Positions 23,260-28,388 of a stretch of DNA of 52,151 nucleotides are shown piece after piece. The DNA lies in the NCBI GenBank assembly GCA_003563895.1, contig PWTK01000109.1:1-52151 (forward strand). Reading direction: 5' to 3'. Numbering within the stretch: the first letter of the stretch is position 1; each line of letters starts with the position of its first letter. The notes beneath the pieces were generated by a model. The model did not search any database. It saw only the letters and a list, made by a program, of their open reading frames with translations, and was not told where the DNA came from. This DNA comes from Syntrophomonadaceae bacterium (GTDB lineage Bacteria; Bacillota; Dethiobacteria; DTU022; UBA8154). Both the position numbers and the translations under genes were made by a program.

Positions 23260-25731
23260 ATGAAGTTCCGCCGCCTTTTTAAGGCAGGAATGCCCCGAAC
23301 AGCTCCGGCCCATCCCCCTGCGGTGCTTGTGCTGGGTGCTGTTTCCCAGATGGGGCAGGTGCTGTTTTTGCGGGAGCTCCTGATGGTGTTTCAGGGCAAC
23401 GAGCTTTTTATCGGGCTTATCCTGGCCGCCTGGTTGGTCTGGGTCGGTGCCGGCAGCCGTTTGGGGGCCCTGCTGGTTGACCGGTTAGGCCGCCCGCTCT
23501 TTCTCCTCGCACTGAACGCGGCCGGCGTACTCGTAGTGCTGCCGGCGGTCATTCTGTTTATGCGTGGGCTTCGCGGGATCCTCAACGTGCACCCGGGAGC
23601 CTACCTTTCGCTGCTTGATGTGGTTCTTTCCTGCTTGCTGCTGCTGGCACTGCCTTGTCTTTTGCTGGGAGCGCAGTTTGTTCTCCTGTCGCGGGTTTGG
23701 CGCGAAAGCGACCGGGCAGCGGATACCTCCGGCGCCGGGAAAACATATGTGGGTGAAGCGGCGGGAAGTGTGTTGGGCGGCATATTCTTTACTTTTTTTG
23801 TGGTGCATTACTGGAATTCGTTCCAGGCAGCGGTTTTCGCGGGCGGCTTGATGCTCGCCGCAGTGCTATATACCACTTGGAAATATACCGGAAATACCGC
23901 CGGGGCGCCGGTGAAAACACGCCCGCTGCTTCTTCTGCTGTTGGCCCTGGCCGCCACAAGCTTCCCTTTCCTGGGTCAGGTCGATGCTTGGGCGTACAAA
24001 ATGCAGTGGCGGTATTTTGCCCCGCAGCACCTGCTCGTGGAAACGCACCAATCGGAGTACGGGAACATTGCCGTGCTGCAGCGGGAAGAGCAGTACAACT
24101 TCTACCAGAGCGGGCACCTGATGTTCAGCATTGCCGGCCCTGAGGCGCCGGCCCCGGCACTTGAAGAGCAGGAAGCGGTGGACTTTGCCCATTTGTCGAT
24201 GGTCCAGCACGAAAAACCTTCACGCGTTCTGCTGATCGGCGGTGGGCTGCGCGGTATGCTTGGGGAGATGCTGAAGCATCCTGTGGGGCGGGTCGACTAT
24301 CTTGAACTGGACGAGGTGCTTATCGGGGCGGCTCGACCGCACCTCCCTGCGGCGACGCTGAAAGCGCTTGCCGATCCCCGGGTGCACCTGAAGCATATTG
24401 ACGGCCGGCTTTTTGTCAAAGCGGCAGAGAAACAGTACGATATGATCATAGTCGATGCCCCCGATCCCGCCACTGCAGCGCTGAACCGCTATTACACCGA
24501 GGAATTTTTCCGCGAAGCCGCAGCCCTCCTGTGTCCCGGGGGAGTATTTGTTATCGGGGCGGACTCCACACCGGACCTCAGGGGGGCTGCGGTGGCCAAC
24601 CGCAACGCCACCATCTACCATACCCTGTCTGCCGTTTTCTCCCGCGTGCTTCCGGCGGGCGAGCGGTTTATGTTTTTTTTCGCCACCAATGCACCCGGGC
24701 AAATCTCGGTCGATCCGCTCATTCTCGAGGAACGTTACGGAGAGCGCGATATAGAAGCCGAAGGCTTTTCACCGCATCATTATCATACGCTGCTGGAAGA
24801 ATCCCAGCTGCAGCGGGTGAACTGGGTGGTCCGCAATCACGGGCGCAGCCCCGATGCGCACCTGGCGGGGCCGGGGACAGGCCCGCTTGTGCCAGGCACT
24901 GTGGCTGAGCAGGAGGAGGCGGAAAGTGAGCTGCCGCCAGTAGAAAGGCGCTACTTCATTAATTCCGATTTCAAGCCCATTGGATATTTTTATACCCTTA
25001 TGTACATGGATGAGCTGGCGCGCGCCGGGTACAGGGAGTTTTTTCACCGGCTGCTGCACATAGAATTTTGGTGGCTGCCGCTGCTGTTTTGTTTCCCCCT
25101 GGCGGCCGTGCCGGCGCTCCAGGCTGCGGCTCGCCGGGGCAAAGAAAGGCTTGATATCCGGTTCGGAGTTCTCTTCACCGTGTTCACGACCGGTTTTTCC
25201 ACGATGGCGCTGCAGATCGCCCTGTTGTTTTCTTTTCAGAGCATTTACGGTTTTGTCTACGAAATGGTGGGGTTGATCGTGGCCATATTCATGTGCGGGT
25301 TGGCCCTTGGTGCTTATATGACAAATCGTTATGTGCGCCACAAGGCAAATATTAACACCCTGGCTGCGGTCCAGCTGGTGATTGCAGCGCTGGCTGCTGG
25401 GATTGCCCTTGCGCTTCCGCAGGTAGCGGGAGTACAGTTTCCCGCCGCCATTTTTGCGCTGTTTTCTATGTTGACCTTTACCGCAGGGCTGATCAACGGC
25501 GTGGATTTTCCCCTCTCGGCCGCCTGCTACATGGCCCTAAGAGGCAATCCTGAAAAAACGACCGGAGCCGTTTACGGCACAGAGCTTTTCGGGGCGTGCG
25601 TCGGGGCAACCCTGGCCAGCGCTGTAGTGGTCCCTATCCTGGGTATTGCCGCCTGCTGCCTGATTGCCGGTGCCGCCAACGGAACCGCTTTTGTTGTACT
25701 CTTGTTGTCGAGGAGGTCTTACCATGACTGA
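23260..25731 (+). CDS. Polytopic membrane protein with spermidine-synthase-like domain
   Basis: An 823-residue membrane fusion. About seven hydrophobic helices (residues 20-240) precede an aminopropyltransferase-like Rossmann domain (about 245-510), then six or so helices (about 600-820). In the middle domain, HQSEYGNIAVLQ, VLLIGGGLRGMLGEMLKH, VDYLELDEV and YDMIIVDAPDP mirror spermidine synthase. The usual GGGDGG is GGGLRG, so the conserved Asp is lost and polyamine synthesis is doubtful. Counting helices with positive loops inside places the enzyme-like domain outside the membrane. The start is ATG 23260 with GAGGAG at 6 nt. The gene overlaps the next one (Tat radical SAM) by 8 bases, so the two are translationally coupled. 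The substrate is unknown. Confidence 0.75.
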   Translation: MKFRRLFKAGMPRTAPAHPPAVLVLGAVSQMGQVLFLRELLMVFQGNELFIGLILAAWLVWVGAGSRLGALLVDRLGRPLFLLALNAAGVLVVLPAVILFMRGLRGILNVHPGAYLSLLDVVLSCLLLLALPCLLLGAQFVLLSRVWRESDRAADTSGAGKTYVGEAAGSVLGGIFFTFFVVHYWNSFQAAVFAGGLMLAAVLYTTWKYTGNTAGAPVKTRPLLLLLLALAATSFPFLGQVDAWAYKMQWRYFAPQHLLVETHQSEYGNIAVLQREEQYNFYQSGHLMFSIAGPEAPAPALEEQEAVDFAHLSMVQHEKPSRVLLIGGGLRGMLGEMLKHPVGRVDYLELDEVLIGAARPHLPAATLKALADPRVHLKHIDGRLFVKAAEKQYDMIIVDAPDPATAALNRYYTEEFFREAAALLCPGGVFVIGADSTPDLRGAAVANRNATIYHTLSAVFSRVLPAGERFMFFFATNAPGQISVDPLILEERYGERDIEAEGFSPHHYHTLLEESQLQRVNWVVRNHGRSPDAHLAGPGTGPLVPGTVAEQEEAESELPPVERRYFINSDFKPIGYFYTLMYMDELARAGYREFFHRLLHIEFWWLPLLFCFPLAAVPALQAAARRGKERLDIRFGVLFTVFTTGFSTMALQIALLFSFQSIYGFVYEMVGLIVAIFMCGLALGAYMTNRYVRHKANINTLAAVQLVIAALAAGIALALPQVAGVQFPAAIFALFSMLTFTAGLINGVDFPLSAACYMALRGNPEKTTGAVYGTELFGACVGATLASAVVVPILGIAACCLIAGAANGTAFVVLLLSRRSYHD

Positions 25732-26938
25732 AAAGAAAAAAGCCCCCGGCAGCCTGAGCCGCCGGGAATTTTTAAAAGCCGGGGCAGCCGGCGCCTGCGC
25801 CTTCTGCCTGGCCGGCGCTTTCGGCTGCGCACCACCGGAACAGCCGGATGAACCGGCCCCAACGGAACCGGTTGATCCAAACAATGAAACAGTACCTCCG
25901 CCCGTAACGGCGGAGAAGGGATTTGTCAGCCCTGTGCTCGCGGGGTGGTTCAGCGAGCTTGAAGAGAGCAGGGTACGCTGCGAGCTCTGCCCCCGGCAGT
26001 GTCAGATGGCAGAGGGGGAAAGGGGCCCCTGCCGGGTGCGCAAAAACCGAGAAGGGAAGCTTTACACCCTGGCTTATGGCAACCCTGCCCTGGTGCAGGA
26101 AGATCCCGTAGAACGAAAGCCCTTCTTTCACGTGCTTCCTGGAAGCCGCGCATTATCCATTTCCACGGCGGGCTGCAACCTGGACTGCAAATTCTGCGAA
26201 GTCTGGGATATGGCCCTGGTTGCACCGGAGGAGGTATACGCGTATGATATGCCCCCGGAAAAGGTGGTTGCGCATGCACGGGACTCCGGTGTGCGGGCGA
26301 TTAGCTATGCTTTCGGCGAGCCGGTCATTTTTCACGAGTATATGACGGAGGTGGCCGCGCTGGCCAAAGAAGCAGGGCTTTTGAACCTGCTCCACACCGC
26401 GGGCTATATCCGTCCCGAACCGCTGAGGGAATTAAGCGGCCACCTGGATGCGGTCAATGTTGACCTGAAAAGCTTTGACGAGGAGTTTTACCGGGAGGTT
26501 GTCGGGGGAGAGTTGGGACCGGTACTGGAAACGCTCCAGCGGCTGGGAGAGGCGGGTGTCCACATTGAGGTGACCAACATCGTTATTCCTACCCTGAACG
26601 ATGACATGGAAACCATAGGAGAAATGTGCCGCTGGATCGCCGGAGAACTGGGGGCCGGCATACCCGTTCACTTCGCTCGCTTTTATCCGCTCTACAAGCT
26701 TTCCGGCCTTCCGCGGACCCCCGTTTCCACCCTCGATCAAGCCCGGGACACCGCACTGCAGGCCGGGCTCAGATACGCCTATGTGGCCCGTGTACCCGGG
26801 CATGAGGGAGAAAATACATTTTGCCCGGGATGCAAGGAACTTGTCATTAACAGAATGGGATTCGTTATAGAAGAAGTACACCTGAAAGACAGCGCCTGCC
26901 GGTACTGCGGCACGGTCATCCCCGGCAGGTGGGATTGA
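25724..26938 (+). CDS. Tat-exported AmmeMemoRadiSam-type radical SAM protein
   Basis: Radical SAM protein of the AmmeMemoRadiSam/PflA-like group; the reaction is unknown. Residues 11-35 form a Tat-type signal (SRREFLK, hydrophobic AGACAFCLAGAFG, then C35 as a possible lipobox Cys), followed by a Pro/Glu-rich linker (36-62). An N-terminal cysteine cluster (C86, C89, C93, C103) precedes the radical SAM motif AGCNLDCKFCEVW (C151, C155, C158). The C-terminus carries a zinc-ribbon-like pair of CxxC (366/369 and 392/395). MEMO1 and AMMECR1 partners are not in the window. ATG 25724 follows AGGAGG and overlaps the preceding membrane-protein gene. The Tat motif strongly suggests the folded [4Fe-4S] protein acts outside the membrane. 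Confidence 0.82.
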   Translation: MTEKKKAPGSLSRREFLKAGAAGACAFCLAGAFGCAPPEQPDEPAPTEPVDPNNETVPPPVTAEKGFVSPVLAGWFSELEESRVRCELCPRQCQMAEGERGPCRVRKNREGKLYTLAYGNPALVQEDPVERKPFFHVLPGSRALSISTAGCNLDCKFCEVWDMALVAPEEVYAYDMPPEKVVAHARDSGVRAISYAFGEPVIFHEYMTEVAALAKEAGLLNLLHTAGYIRPEPLRELSGHLDAVNVDLKSFDEEFYREVVGGELGPVLETLQRLGEAGVHIEVTNIVIPTLNDDMETIGEMCRWIAGELGAGIPVHFARFYPLYKLSGLPRTPVSTLDQARDTALQAGLRYAYVARVPGHEGENTFCPGCKELVINRMGFVIEEVHLKDSACRYCGTVIPGRWD

Positions 26939-26939
26939 T

Positions 26940-28052
26940 TTACTGCAGCCGCTGACGGTGCAGTTCAAGCTGGGTCAGGGACCTGGAATCGAGATTTGTC
27001 AAGCCGGCCTCCTTGGCCCACTCCATGGCTTCCACGAACTCCTCGGCACTGATGGCCCGGGCGATGCGGTCGTATTCAAAAGCCCTGTGCTCGACCCGGT
27101 ACTGGGCCATAATGTTGACGTAGGTGTCCGTCGACAGGTTTTGGGCCACCCATTCCACGAATTCTTTCGTGCCGGCCACCCGGTTGGGCATCACCAGGTG
27201 GCGCACCATCAACCCGCGCCGGGCAATGCCCCTCTCATCGGTGTCGAGGTCCCCCACCTGACGGTGCATTTCTGTGATCGCCTCCCGGGCTAGCTTCGGG
27301 TAATCATAGGCTTCTGCATTGTTGTATCGCTCCGCTTCCTTGCCGTCCATGAATTTCATATCCGGCAGGTAAATGTCGATGACGCCATCCAGCAGCTTTA
27401 ATGCCTCGAGGCGTTCGTAACCGCTGGTGTTGTAGCAAAGGGGCAGGTGCAGCCCCTTCTCCAGGGCGATGCGCGCAGCCCCCAGGATGTTCGGCATGAC
27501 GTGGGTTGGTGTGACCAGGTTGATGTTGTGACAGCCCCGCCGCTGAAGGTCGATCATCATCTCCGCCAGCCTTTCATCGCTAATCTCGCTCCCTCTCCCC
27601 TCATGCGCAATGGGCCAGTTCTGGCAGAAGACACAGCGGAGATTGCAGTTGGAGAAGAAAATGGTTCCCGAACCGCTGTTCCCCACAAGCGGCAGTTCTT
27701 CGCCGAAATGCGGCTGATGGGTGTACACCACTGCCTGTTCCGGGGCGCGGCAAAAGCCCTCATCTCCCGCGCGCCGGTTTGCCCCGCATTGGCGCGGGCA
27801 GAGGGTGCAGTTTTCCATCATCTCATAGGCCAGCTCGATCCGCTCGGCAAGCCTGCCTTCTTGTTCCAGCCTGGCATAACCGGCAAGCCAGTCATTGTCG
27901 ATTTCAAGGGGTTTCTCCCGCGGTTCCTCCCGCAGATCTTCCGGCTCTGCGCAGCCCTTTAAAAGCCCGGCCCCGCCGGCGAGGCAGAGCAGCCCGGCTC
28001 CGCCGGCCAGGCACCACATGTTTTTGATAAAAACCCTGCGAGTCATGGCCAT
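26940..28052 (-). CDS. Tat-type radical SAM protein, COG1313/PflX-like
   Basis: A second, different radical SAM protein of 370 residues. Its start, MTRRVFIK, is a twin-arginine signal. The hydrophobic part contains the tandem nonamer CLAGGAGLL twice, ending in LKGC (C34), a possible though atypical lipobox. An N-terminal cysteine set NCTLCPRQC plus C101 precedes the cluster motif SNCNLRCVFCQNWPI (C136, C140, C143), then the PflA-like barrel with TPTHVMPN, PLCYNTSGYE, DIYLPDMKFMD and RHLVMPN. It converges with the other radical SAM gene, with one base between the stop codons. The start at 28052 has GAGGGTG upstream; 28100 is less likely. Function unknown; it resembles COG1313 activase-like proteins. 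Confidence 0.8.
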   Translation of the reverse strand: MAMTRRVFIKNMWCLAGGAGLLCLAGGAGLLKGCAEPEDLREEPREKPLEIDNDWLAGYARLEQEGRLAERIELAYEMMENCTLCPRQCGANRRAGDEGFCRAPEQAVVYTHQPHFGEELPLVGNSGSGTIFFSNCNLRCVFCQNWPIAHEGRGSEISDERLAEMMIDLQRRGCHNINLVTPTHVMPNILGAARIALEKGLHLPLCYNTSGYERLEALKLLDGVIDIYLPDMKFMDGKEAERYNNAEAYDYPKLAREAITEMHRQVGDLDTDERGIARRGLMVRHLVMPNRVAGTKEFVEWVAQNLSTDTYVNIMAQYRVEHRAFEYDRIARAISAEEFVEAMEWAKEAGLTNLDSRSLTQLELHRQRLQ

Positions 28053-28157
28053 GTTAAACACCCTCGCTATAGAGTATAAAAATACATTAAGAAGGACCAT
28101 GTGGTAATTATTTTACCTGTAGAAAAAGAAAAAAACAAGATGGAAACGGGGAGAAAC

Positions 28158-28388
28158 ATGATTGCAGAGCGGGTTCTCAAAAAACAGTCCTGCAGGGCTT
28201 TTGATCCCGGAAAAAGGGGGCACACATTTTTCCCGAAATGCCGGGAACTTGTCATTAACACCAGAACGGGATTTGTTATTGAAGAGATACACCTGGAAGG
28301 CGGTGTTTGCCGGCATTGCGGCGGTGATGGCAAGAGCTGTTTGTCACCTGTTCGGGGTCTTTTTCCAGGACTGACGCATGACTTTTAA
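28158..28388 (+). pseudogene. Relic of the C-terminal zinc ribbon of a radical SAM gene
   Basis: A short frame whose middle (28204-28323) matches the last 45 codons of the gene at 25724-26938 at both DNA and protein level: CRELVINTRTGFVIEEIHLEGGVCRHCG against CKELVINRMGFVIEEVHLKDSACRYCG (each shown as a whole motif, gaps of one residue). The first Cys of the ribbon is changed (FCPGC to FFPKC), and no radical SAM domain is present. ATG 28158 with GGGGAG upstream might still be translated (76 residues). It is best read as a decayed duplicate or remnant of a former second copy. Confidence 0.65.

Follow-up and report, generated by a model that had tools for sequence, protein, structure and literature searches.

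Few enzyme superfamilies are as large as that of the radical SAM proteins, which are assigned to the cytosol because SAM and strong reductants are located there. In the AmmeMemoRadiSam system, the radical SAM enzyme AmrS is cytosolic and carries no leader, and its partners AmrB (Memo-like) and AmrA (AMMECR1) are encoded beside it. Other described proteins that bear comparison with the locus reported here are the PflX-like and glycyl-radical-activase-like proteins, SpeE, and the fused MFS/spermidine synthases (NF037959). SAM is also moved between compartments, where transporters such as a Golgi SAM carrier feed lumenal methyltransferases. A literature search outside subscription papers and preprints returned nothing relevant on exported radical SAM proteins or on a membrane SpeE. 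The locus described below lies in a window of 52,151 nucleotides (the whole stretch of DNA analysed) from a Syntrophomonadaceae bacterium, and it encodes two radical SAM proteins predicted to be exported and a membrane protein with a SpeE-like domain.

The three-gene locus and its distribution

The first gene, P0001 (23260-25731, plus strand), encodes a 14-TM MFS-like membrane protein with a spermidine-synthase-like, putatively SAM-binding domain, predicted to be extracytoplasmic, between TM7 and TM8. The second, P0002 (25724-26938, plus strand), encodes a radical SAM enzyme of the AmrS type (TIGR04337) with a Tat/lipoprotein leader, and the third, P0003 (26940-28052, minus strand), a radical SAM protein which we take to be PflX-like, with a Tat-like leader. 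Each open reading frame has a good ribosome-binding site. The preliminary description had recognized three neighboring SAM-fold genes with export or membrane features, the first two overlapping by 8 bases; the reading frames, profile matches and leaders agree with this, and the overlap is found at 25724-25731. It also placed the third gene correctly but left its orientation unmentioned: P0003 is convergent with P0002, tail to tail, with 1 base separating the two stop codons. In the tail of the region that it covered, up to 28388, part of the P0002 C-terminus is present a second time in decayed form (28197-28322, plus strand), a remnant that is probably non-functional. The gap between recO and glyQ is 5.5 kb with the trio in this genome and 76-1343 bp in 17 relatives; since it is so short there and the trio is located elsewhere in other genomes, the recO-glyQS gap is rejected as a fixed chromosomal niche.

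The layout, in which P0001 is followed by P0002 and P0003 faces them, is identical in 40 of the 40 named loci with all three genes. The trio loci cover about 12 nominal phyla and 52 of 62 loci come from soda-lake metagenomes, all named loci being drawn from metagenome bins, which may be mislabelled. Among 71 genomes of the window's order, 17 have all three genes and 50 have none, and the distances of P0001, P0002 and P0003 are correlated (r 0.65-0.73, against a permuted maximum of 0.23). Most loci with P0001 but without a partner stop at a contig edge; P0003 is absent from L060, L098 and L110, where room for it is present, and L083 has neither P0002 nor P0003. The P0003 sequences form a class of 60-76% identity, and P0001/P0002 accompany them in every case where the contig extends far enough. 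Near the trio, no fourth conserved gene for a substrate or an electron donor was found, the commonest neighbor cluster occurring in only 5 loci. The trio thus co-occurs in relatives, and its strict co-occurrence and synteny support the earlier suggestion of an undescribed system, here a real three-gene unit that appears to have spread horizontally between phyla as a cassette, mostly in alkaline soda lakes.

P0001, a candidate carrier with a SpeE-like domain

P0001 matches Spermine_synth (PF01564) with 89.7 bits (cut-off 22.9) and the NCBIfam family MFS_SpdSyn (NF037959) with 54.3 bits, above the curated cut-off of 40, and scores below the PRK03612/SpeE equivalog cut-offs. Its AF2 model (pLDDT 90.2, pTM 0.90) has 14 helices, with the SpeE-like domain inserted between helices 7 and 8. 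This domain (24019-25059, plus strand; residues 254-600) is seen in the profile match, in the model and in the Foldseek search, in which it matches polyamine aminopropyltransferases (E 7e-12). Because the model is confident and its loops follow the positive-inside rule, with about 22 K/R inside versus 3.7 on the short outside loops, the predicted location of the SpeE-like domain outside the membrane is well supported. The transmembrane part is an internal repeat of two homologous 6-TM halves (hhalign 97.1%, E 6e-11), and the N-half resembles mainly MFS transporters in fold, each match being weak on its own (E no better than 0.03). From this fold class, P0001 may be a carrier or transporter. 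The weak fold matches of the transmembrane half include 9d7v, a spermidine-bound membrane protein entry.

The GGGDGG motif of spermidine synthases is replaced in P0001 by GGGLRG (24238-24255, plus strand), with loss of the Asp that holds decarboxylated SAM, and the adenosyl-site residues are kept despite this replacement. P0001 retains neither of the residues for decarboxylated SAM and amine that correspond to D103 and Q79, A306 occupying the Q79 position when the alignment is read by hand. In a plant spermidine synthase (SPDS), the change D103I abolishes SPDS activity and confers SAM-dependent methyltransferase activity (PMC3725402). Since the residue selecting decarboxylated SAM is replaced, the outer domain of P0001 probably binds SAM and not decarboxylated SAM. 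A true spermidine synthase is rejected on these residues.

P0002 and P0003, radical SAM proteins with leaders

P0002 matches Radical_SAM (PF04055) with 76.4 bits and the AmmeMemoRadiSam rSAM enzyme family TIGR04337 with 343.9 bits (cut-off 220). Its CX3CX2C cluster motif (26174-26197, plus strand; C151, C155 and C158) is invariant in 14/14 order members, as are the residues of the GEP and DLK motifs, and is present in all 60 relatives examined. Extra conserved Cys pairs lie near the C-terminus. P0003 matches PF04055 with 50.5 bits (cut-off 29.5); no NCBIfam family scored above its cut-off, and a sequence search of the PDB gave no homologues. The CX3CX2C motif of P0003 (27624-27647, minus strand; C136, C140 and C143) is likewise invariant in 14/14 order members and kept in 38/38 relatives.

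The P0002 leader (25754-25828, plus strand) consists of the Tat motif SRREFLK, a hydrophobic stretch and a lipobox-like GC; its RR and GC are invariant in 14/14 order members, and across phyla RR is found in 37/44 and RR, KR or RK in 44/44 relatives. The Pfam TAT_signal score is 19.2, below the cut-off of 22.7. The lipobox Cys is present in 17/17 monoderm (Gram-positive-type) versus 4/27 diderm hosts (p 9e-9). The P0003 leader (27951-28052, minus strand) has TRRVFIKN, a hydrophobic stretch and GC; RR is often replaced by RK, RN or RE in the window's order and is found in 30/38 relatives across phyla, and a lipobox switch by host envelope is not significant in this protein (9/16 vs 7/21, p 0.2). 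The twin-arginine signals with lipobox-like Cys that had been proposed are seen at both N-termini, that of P0003 being the less strictly kept within the order. The exported copies are more acidic than the cytosolic paralogues of their own genomes in 19/19 comparisons (9/9 and 10/10), a difference that could partly reflect halophilic donors. TatC is found in 17/18 trio genomes of the window's order; the window's own assembly, which is 80% complete, yielded neither TatA nor TatC. Because the P0002 lipobox tracks Gram-positive-type hosts and the exported copies are more acidic, the predicted export of P0002 and P0003 to the extracytoplasmic side is well supported. Host-adapted leaders, positive-inside topology, acidity relative to paralogues, co-occurrence and synteny all agree with the extracytoplasmic location put forward in the preliminary description. 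Neither of the refuting outcomes named there, non-exported N-termini or a lack of co-occurrence in related genomes, appeared when motif conservation, AlphaFold topology and co-occurrence were examined.

Putative function, alternatives and known systems

It is about as likely as not that the cassette as a whole performs SAM-dependent reactions at the outer surface of the cytoplasmic membrane. A more specific form of this proposal, extracytoplasmic radical SAM catalysis with SAM from a dedicated MFS-type exporter, P0001, in a mobile soda-lake adaptation module across phyla, is advanced tentatively. First, P0001 would be an MFS-type 6+6 helix carrier whose two extra helices hold the spermidine-synthase-like domain outside. 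Second, P0002 and P0003 would fold with their Fe-S clusters before Tat export, P0002 being tethered as a lipoprotein in Gram-positive-type hosts and freed elsewhere by signal cleavage; these two steps are well supported. Third, judging from its residues, the outer domain would bind SAM in preference to decarboxylated SAM. Fourth, P0001 would export SAM or hand it to P0002 and P0003, perhaps in exchange for spent nucleoside. Fifth, P0002 and P0003 would cleave SAM to yield the deoxyadenosyl radical and act on a small molecule or on some general constituent of the envelope, such as a lipid or surface polymer; the lack of a conserved fourth gene in the vicinity disfavors a dedicated peptide. A redox chain in the membrane or outside the cytoplasm would supply the electrons, and the benefit would be tied to high-pH life in soda. 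Cofactor supply had been singled out as needing explanation; P0001 provides a concrete candidate, and most likely it would deliver SAM to the exported P0002 and P0003. The trio may plausibly act in cell-surface modification or as a redox system, as first suggested. The hosts named Wenzhouxiangella and Trueperaceae have aerobic relatives, which is awkward for an exported 4Fe-4S enzyme.

Neither a SAM pool nor a suitable low-potential reductant is known to us outside the cytoplasm, and no substrate is encoded nearby. Together with the Cys pairs near the P0002 C-terminus, this speaks for a different assignment, in which exported P0002 and P0003 would carry electrons or act as sensors through their Fe-S clusters, and the SpeE-like domain would serve as a receptor with an adenosyl compound or polyamine as its ligand. 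We consider it unlikely, however, as CX3CX2C is kept in all relatives, GEP and DLK of P0002 are invariant (14/14), P0001 keeps its adenosyl-binding residues, and it would be a coincidence for one cassette to combine three independent SAM folds. An extracytoplasmic polyamine system, with P0001 as the source or exporter of polyamines carrying aminopropyl or N-methyl groups, which P0002 and P0003 modify further and which buffer the envelope at high pH, appears rather improbable. The SpeE fold, a substitution at the D103 position like that of putrescine N-methyltransferase (PMC3725402) and the match to 9d7v are in its favor, but aminopropyl transfer by P0001 is unlikely because both the D103 and Q79 equivalents are lost, and no other gene is conserved nearby. 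It is also improbable that the leaders are only membrane anchors and radical SAM chemistry stays cytoplasmic: although Tat genes were not found in the window's own assembly and RR of P0003 is not strictly kept, the twin-arginine motif, the dependence of the cleavage type on the host's envelope, the acidity shift, the predicted outside position of the P0001 SAM domain and the leaderless cytosolic AmrS in the same genome argue against it. That the genes are chance neighbors, misbinned or wrongly called, as the fallible labels of metagenome bins might suggest, has a negligible probability and is refuted by the synteny shared among assemblies and studies independent of one another (40/40 with the same layout), strict co-occurrence, congruent distances and long contigs.

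If SAM-dependent chemistry does take place outside, the trio would extend radical-SAM chemistry to a new location; two conserved exported enzymes encoded together with a SAM-domain carrier would mean that bacteria are able to shift SAM chemistry to their surface, and would offer a route to a SAM exporter and its source of electrons. The bias toward soda lakes links the trio to a definite selective force (high pH, sodium carbonate), and a unit of only three genes is readily expressed and tested.

P0002 resembles the AmrS of AmmeMemoRadiSam in passing the TIGR04337 cut-off but is only 39% identical to the window genome's cytosolic, leaderless AmrS, which adjoins AmrB/AmrA-like genes read from sequence and unscored (G000:C93). 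Unlike AmrS, P0002 carries a conserved Tat leader and has no AmrA/AmrB partner beside it. The Memo-like matches of the order adjoin a separate cytosolic AmrS (e.g., G058:C64 and G010:C48), and linkage of exported P0002 to Memo/AMMECR1 is rejected, as only the trio genes are conserved around the trio. P0001 shares with the fused MFS/spermidine synthases and SpeE its NF037959 and PF01564 matches and the fold of its domain, but has 14 TM, with the domain between the halves and predicted outside, and has lost GGGDGG. P0003, which has a cytosolic paralogue of 48% identity in the window genome, is like PflX-like and glycyl-radical-activase-like proteins in Radical_SAM (PF04055) and CX3CX2C, and differs from them by its Tat-like leader and its distinct class. 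Compared by function and not by homology, P0001 would work like the compartmental SAM transporters, moving SAM across a membrane to enzymes beyond it, but would differ from them in being a bacterial, MFS-like protein encoded together with radical SAM enzymes.

The three-gene unit and its surroundings

P0001, an MFS-like membrane protein with a spermidine-synthase-like (SpeE-like) domain, is encoded on the forward strand (23260-25731), and P0002, an AmrS-type radical SAM protein, follows on the same strand (25724-26938); these ORF coordinates confirm that the two genes overlap by 8 bases, as the preliminary description had it, the overlap being the first 8 bases of P0002. The gene for P0003, a PflX-like radical SAM protein, is on the reverse strand (26940-28052), tail-to-tail with P0002 and with one base between the stop codons (26936-26942). 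Many loci share a short gap between these convergent genes, so that the P0002 and P0003 transcripts probably overlap. The flanking genes, named from their translated sequences, are presumably era and recO upstream and glyQS, ppsR-like and ppdK-like genes downstream. Since recO and glyQ are separated by only 76-1343 bp in 17 relatives from the window's own family vs 5552 bp here, the trio at this site looks like an insertion. At 28197-28322 (forward strand, within the ORF at 28101-28388) lies a decayed, partial duplicate of the C-terminal part of P0002, which shares about 63% identity with the P0002 of the window and suggests a past duplication or replacement.

That the trio forms one genetic unit is well supported. 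The expected co-occurrence in related genomes was borne out: among the 71 genomes of the order DTU022, 17 have all three genes and 50 have none, with P0001 in 20 and exported P0002 and exported P0003 in 18 each. In three of the four exceptions (G009, G035, G041) the match to P0001 or P0002 is at, or close to, the end of a contig, and in the fourth (G001) the P0003 match runs off the contig. A P0001 scan of 84,980 species, one genome each, gave 62 loci at 47-67% identity, followed by a gap down to 29-34%. All three genes are present at 40 loci, every one arranged P0001>P0002><P0003; the others have P0001 alone (14) or P0001 and P0002 (8), mostly because of contig ends. The flanking genes vary between loci, and the flank comparison found no fourth gene common to trio loci. 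Distances between the encoded proteins correlate across the three genes (r 0.65-0.73, against at most 0.23 in permutations). A close P0001 is present in only 3 of 399 genomes of a phylum-wide draw, the window's own included.

Three loci deserve separate mention. A 100%-complete genome from another family of the phylum carries a full trio at 65-66% identity (G102:C23; L135 7399-12187), and is possibly a cultured carrier usable for experiments. At the sole rearranged locus seen (L044/L084, G048:C153), P0001 and P0002 are about 7.9 kb apart, with other genes in between. A Phycisphaerales chromosome (CP070691.1, L105 7980-9611) encodes a truncated 543-aa P0001 with neither P0002 nor P0003 in the flank, and is a decayed cassette.

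Export signals and membrane topology

The sequence of P0002 gives good support for a Tat leader. Its RR and lipobox GC are invariant in 14 of 14 order members, and RR is found in 37 of 44 relatives from many phyla (RR, KR or RK in 44/44). The lipobox Cys is present in all 17 Bacillota, Chloroflexota or Actinomycetota hosts (counting L057, put in the window's order as the same locus as G024) vs 4 of 27 others, three of these four being apparent artefacts of the pattern; this distribution would be expected of a working export signal adapting to the host envelope. P0003 has RR in 30 of 38 relatives; some members of the window's order have a degraded motif, and the P0003 lipobox showed no significant pattern with host envelope. 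In every comparison with a leaderless paralogue from the same genome (9/9 and 10/10), the domain part of the exported protein was the more acidic; net charge per 100 residues averaged -3.4 against +0.1 and -4.2 against -0.7 (Wilcoxon p 0.004 and 0.002, respectively), as expected of proteins that would face a salty alkaline outside. TatC occurs in 17 of the 18 trio genomes of the order; the assembly that holds the window, 79.6% complete, yielded neither TatC nor TatA. An extracytoplasmic location is highly probable.

P0001 matches Spermine_synth and MFS_SpdSyn. Its AlphaFold model (70 sequences; pLDDT 90.2, pTM 0.90) has seven helices, the SpeE-like domain and seven helices; hhalign finds homology between the two sets of helices (E 6e-11), leaving over helices 7 and 8, which bracket the domain. 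Two surplus helices bracketing the midpoint resemble those of 14-TM MFS proteins. The N-half modelled alone (pLDDT 93) retrieved mainly MFS structures in a fold comparison, each weakly (E 0.03 or worse). K+R number about 22 on predicted inside loops vs 3.7 on short outside loops, and distant relatives are alike; this bias places the SpeE-like domain, with good support from the predicted topology, outside the membrane. The domain matches polyamine aminopropyltransferases (E 7e-12) and retains the adenosyl-binding residues GGG, ELD, DGR and DP, with GGGDGG changed to GGGLRG. The equivalent exchange in Datura spermidine synthase, D103I, abolished SPDS activity and conferred low SAM-dependent methyltransferase activity (PMC3725402). 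The outer domain is thus predicted to bind SAM without aminopropyl transfer.

Habitat and spread

Record names place 48 of the 62 loci in Kulunda soda lakes (B1, T1, T3 and CS sets); four further loci with DLM2 or PLM2 names are presumably from Cariboo soda lakes, and two named CROMO from what we take to be a serpentinite site. Soda-lake origin applies to 52/62 close loci vs 1/18 distant relatives (Fisher p 1e-9, the loci not being independent). The Kulunda lakes studied in PMC6146748 all have a pH around ten, the 2016 sets from Cock Soda Lake probably belong to PMC6704655, and the Cariboo soda lakes are the subject of PMC6748926, where the DLM2/PLM2 codes are not printed. We infer that the trio is of benefit at high pH.

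In a 45-row tree, nominal phyla are intermixed with strong support, Phycisphaerae neighbouring Gammaproteobacteria, Trueperaceae a spirochaete, and Bacillota Chloroflexi. Host labels are those of metagenome bins, every record title starting with MAG, and may be wrong; the mixed tree therefore favours, rather than proves, horizontal transfer of the trio between phyla.

Putative function and relation to known systems

P0001 would deliver SAM across the membrane, and P0002 and P0003 would carry out radical chemistry outside the cell. The substrate may be a small molecule or a general envelope component, because no dedicated partner gene is encoded. We give an even chance to the combined explanation, an exported SAM-dependent cassette supplied by P0001; true radical SAM catalysis outside, fed by P0001, is proposed more tentatively. 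Conservation of the Fe-S cluster motifs is well supported, CX3CX2C being kept in every P0002 and P0003 relative examined.

P0002 scores 343.9 bits against TIGR04337 AmrS (cut-off 220), and P0003 matches Radical_SAM only. A distant MFS-SpeE class (28-34%; L113-L127, L137-L140), with hosts in Brocadiales, Omnitrophota, Planctomycetes and others, adjoins another AmrS, often Tat- or Sec-signalled, without P0003. Such pairs are frequent and vary in orientation, and the trio's exported P0002 makes up a clade apart from the AmrS of the distant class. It therefore seems that P0003 joined an older two-gene core of P0001 and AmrS in the soda-lake lineage. In Acidihalobacter, amrS, amrB and amrA are reported in one cluster with speE and urease genes (PMC9062700), which echoes the pairing of SpeE with AmrS in the cytosol.

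The window's genome encodes a separate cytosolic AmrS, 39% identical to P0002, on contig C93, where AmrB-, AmrA- and AmrS-like genes stand in a row (L046 4009-6607; AmrB and AmrA judged by the look of their sequences), apparently its cytosolic AmmeMemoRadiSam system (AmrS, Memo-like AmrB and AmrA). Memo-like matches in other order genomes likewise adjoin cytosolic AmrS, not exported P0002. AmmeMemoRadiSam is the closest named system; two of its defining features were looked for in the trio and were absent, and no known kind matching the trio was found in the open-licence literature. On these grounds the trio, made of parts from known families, would represent a categorically new system of putative function.
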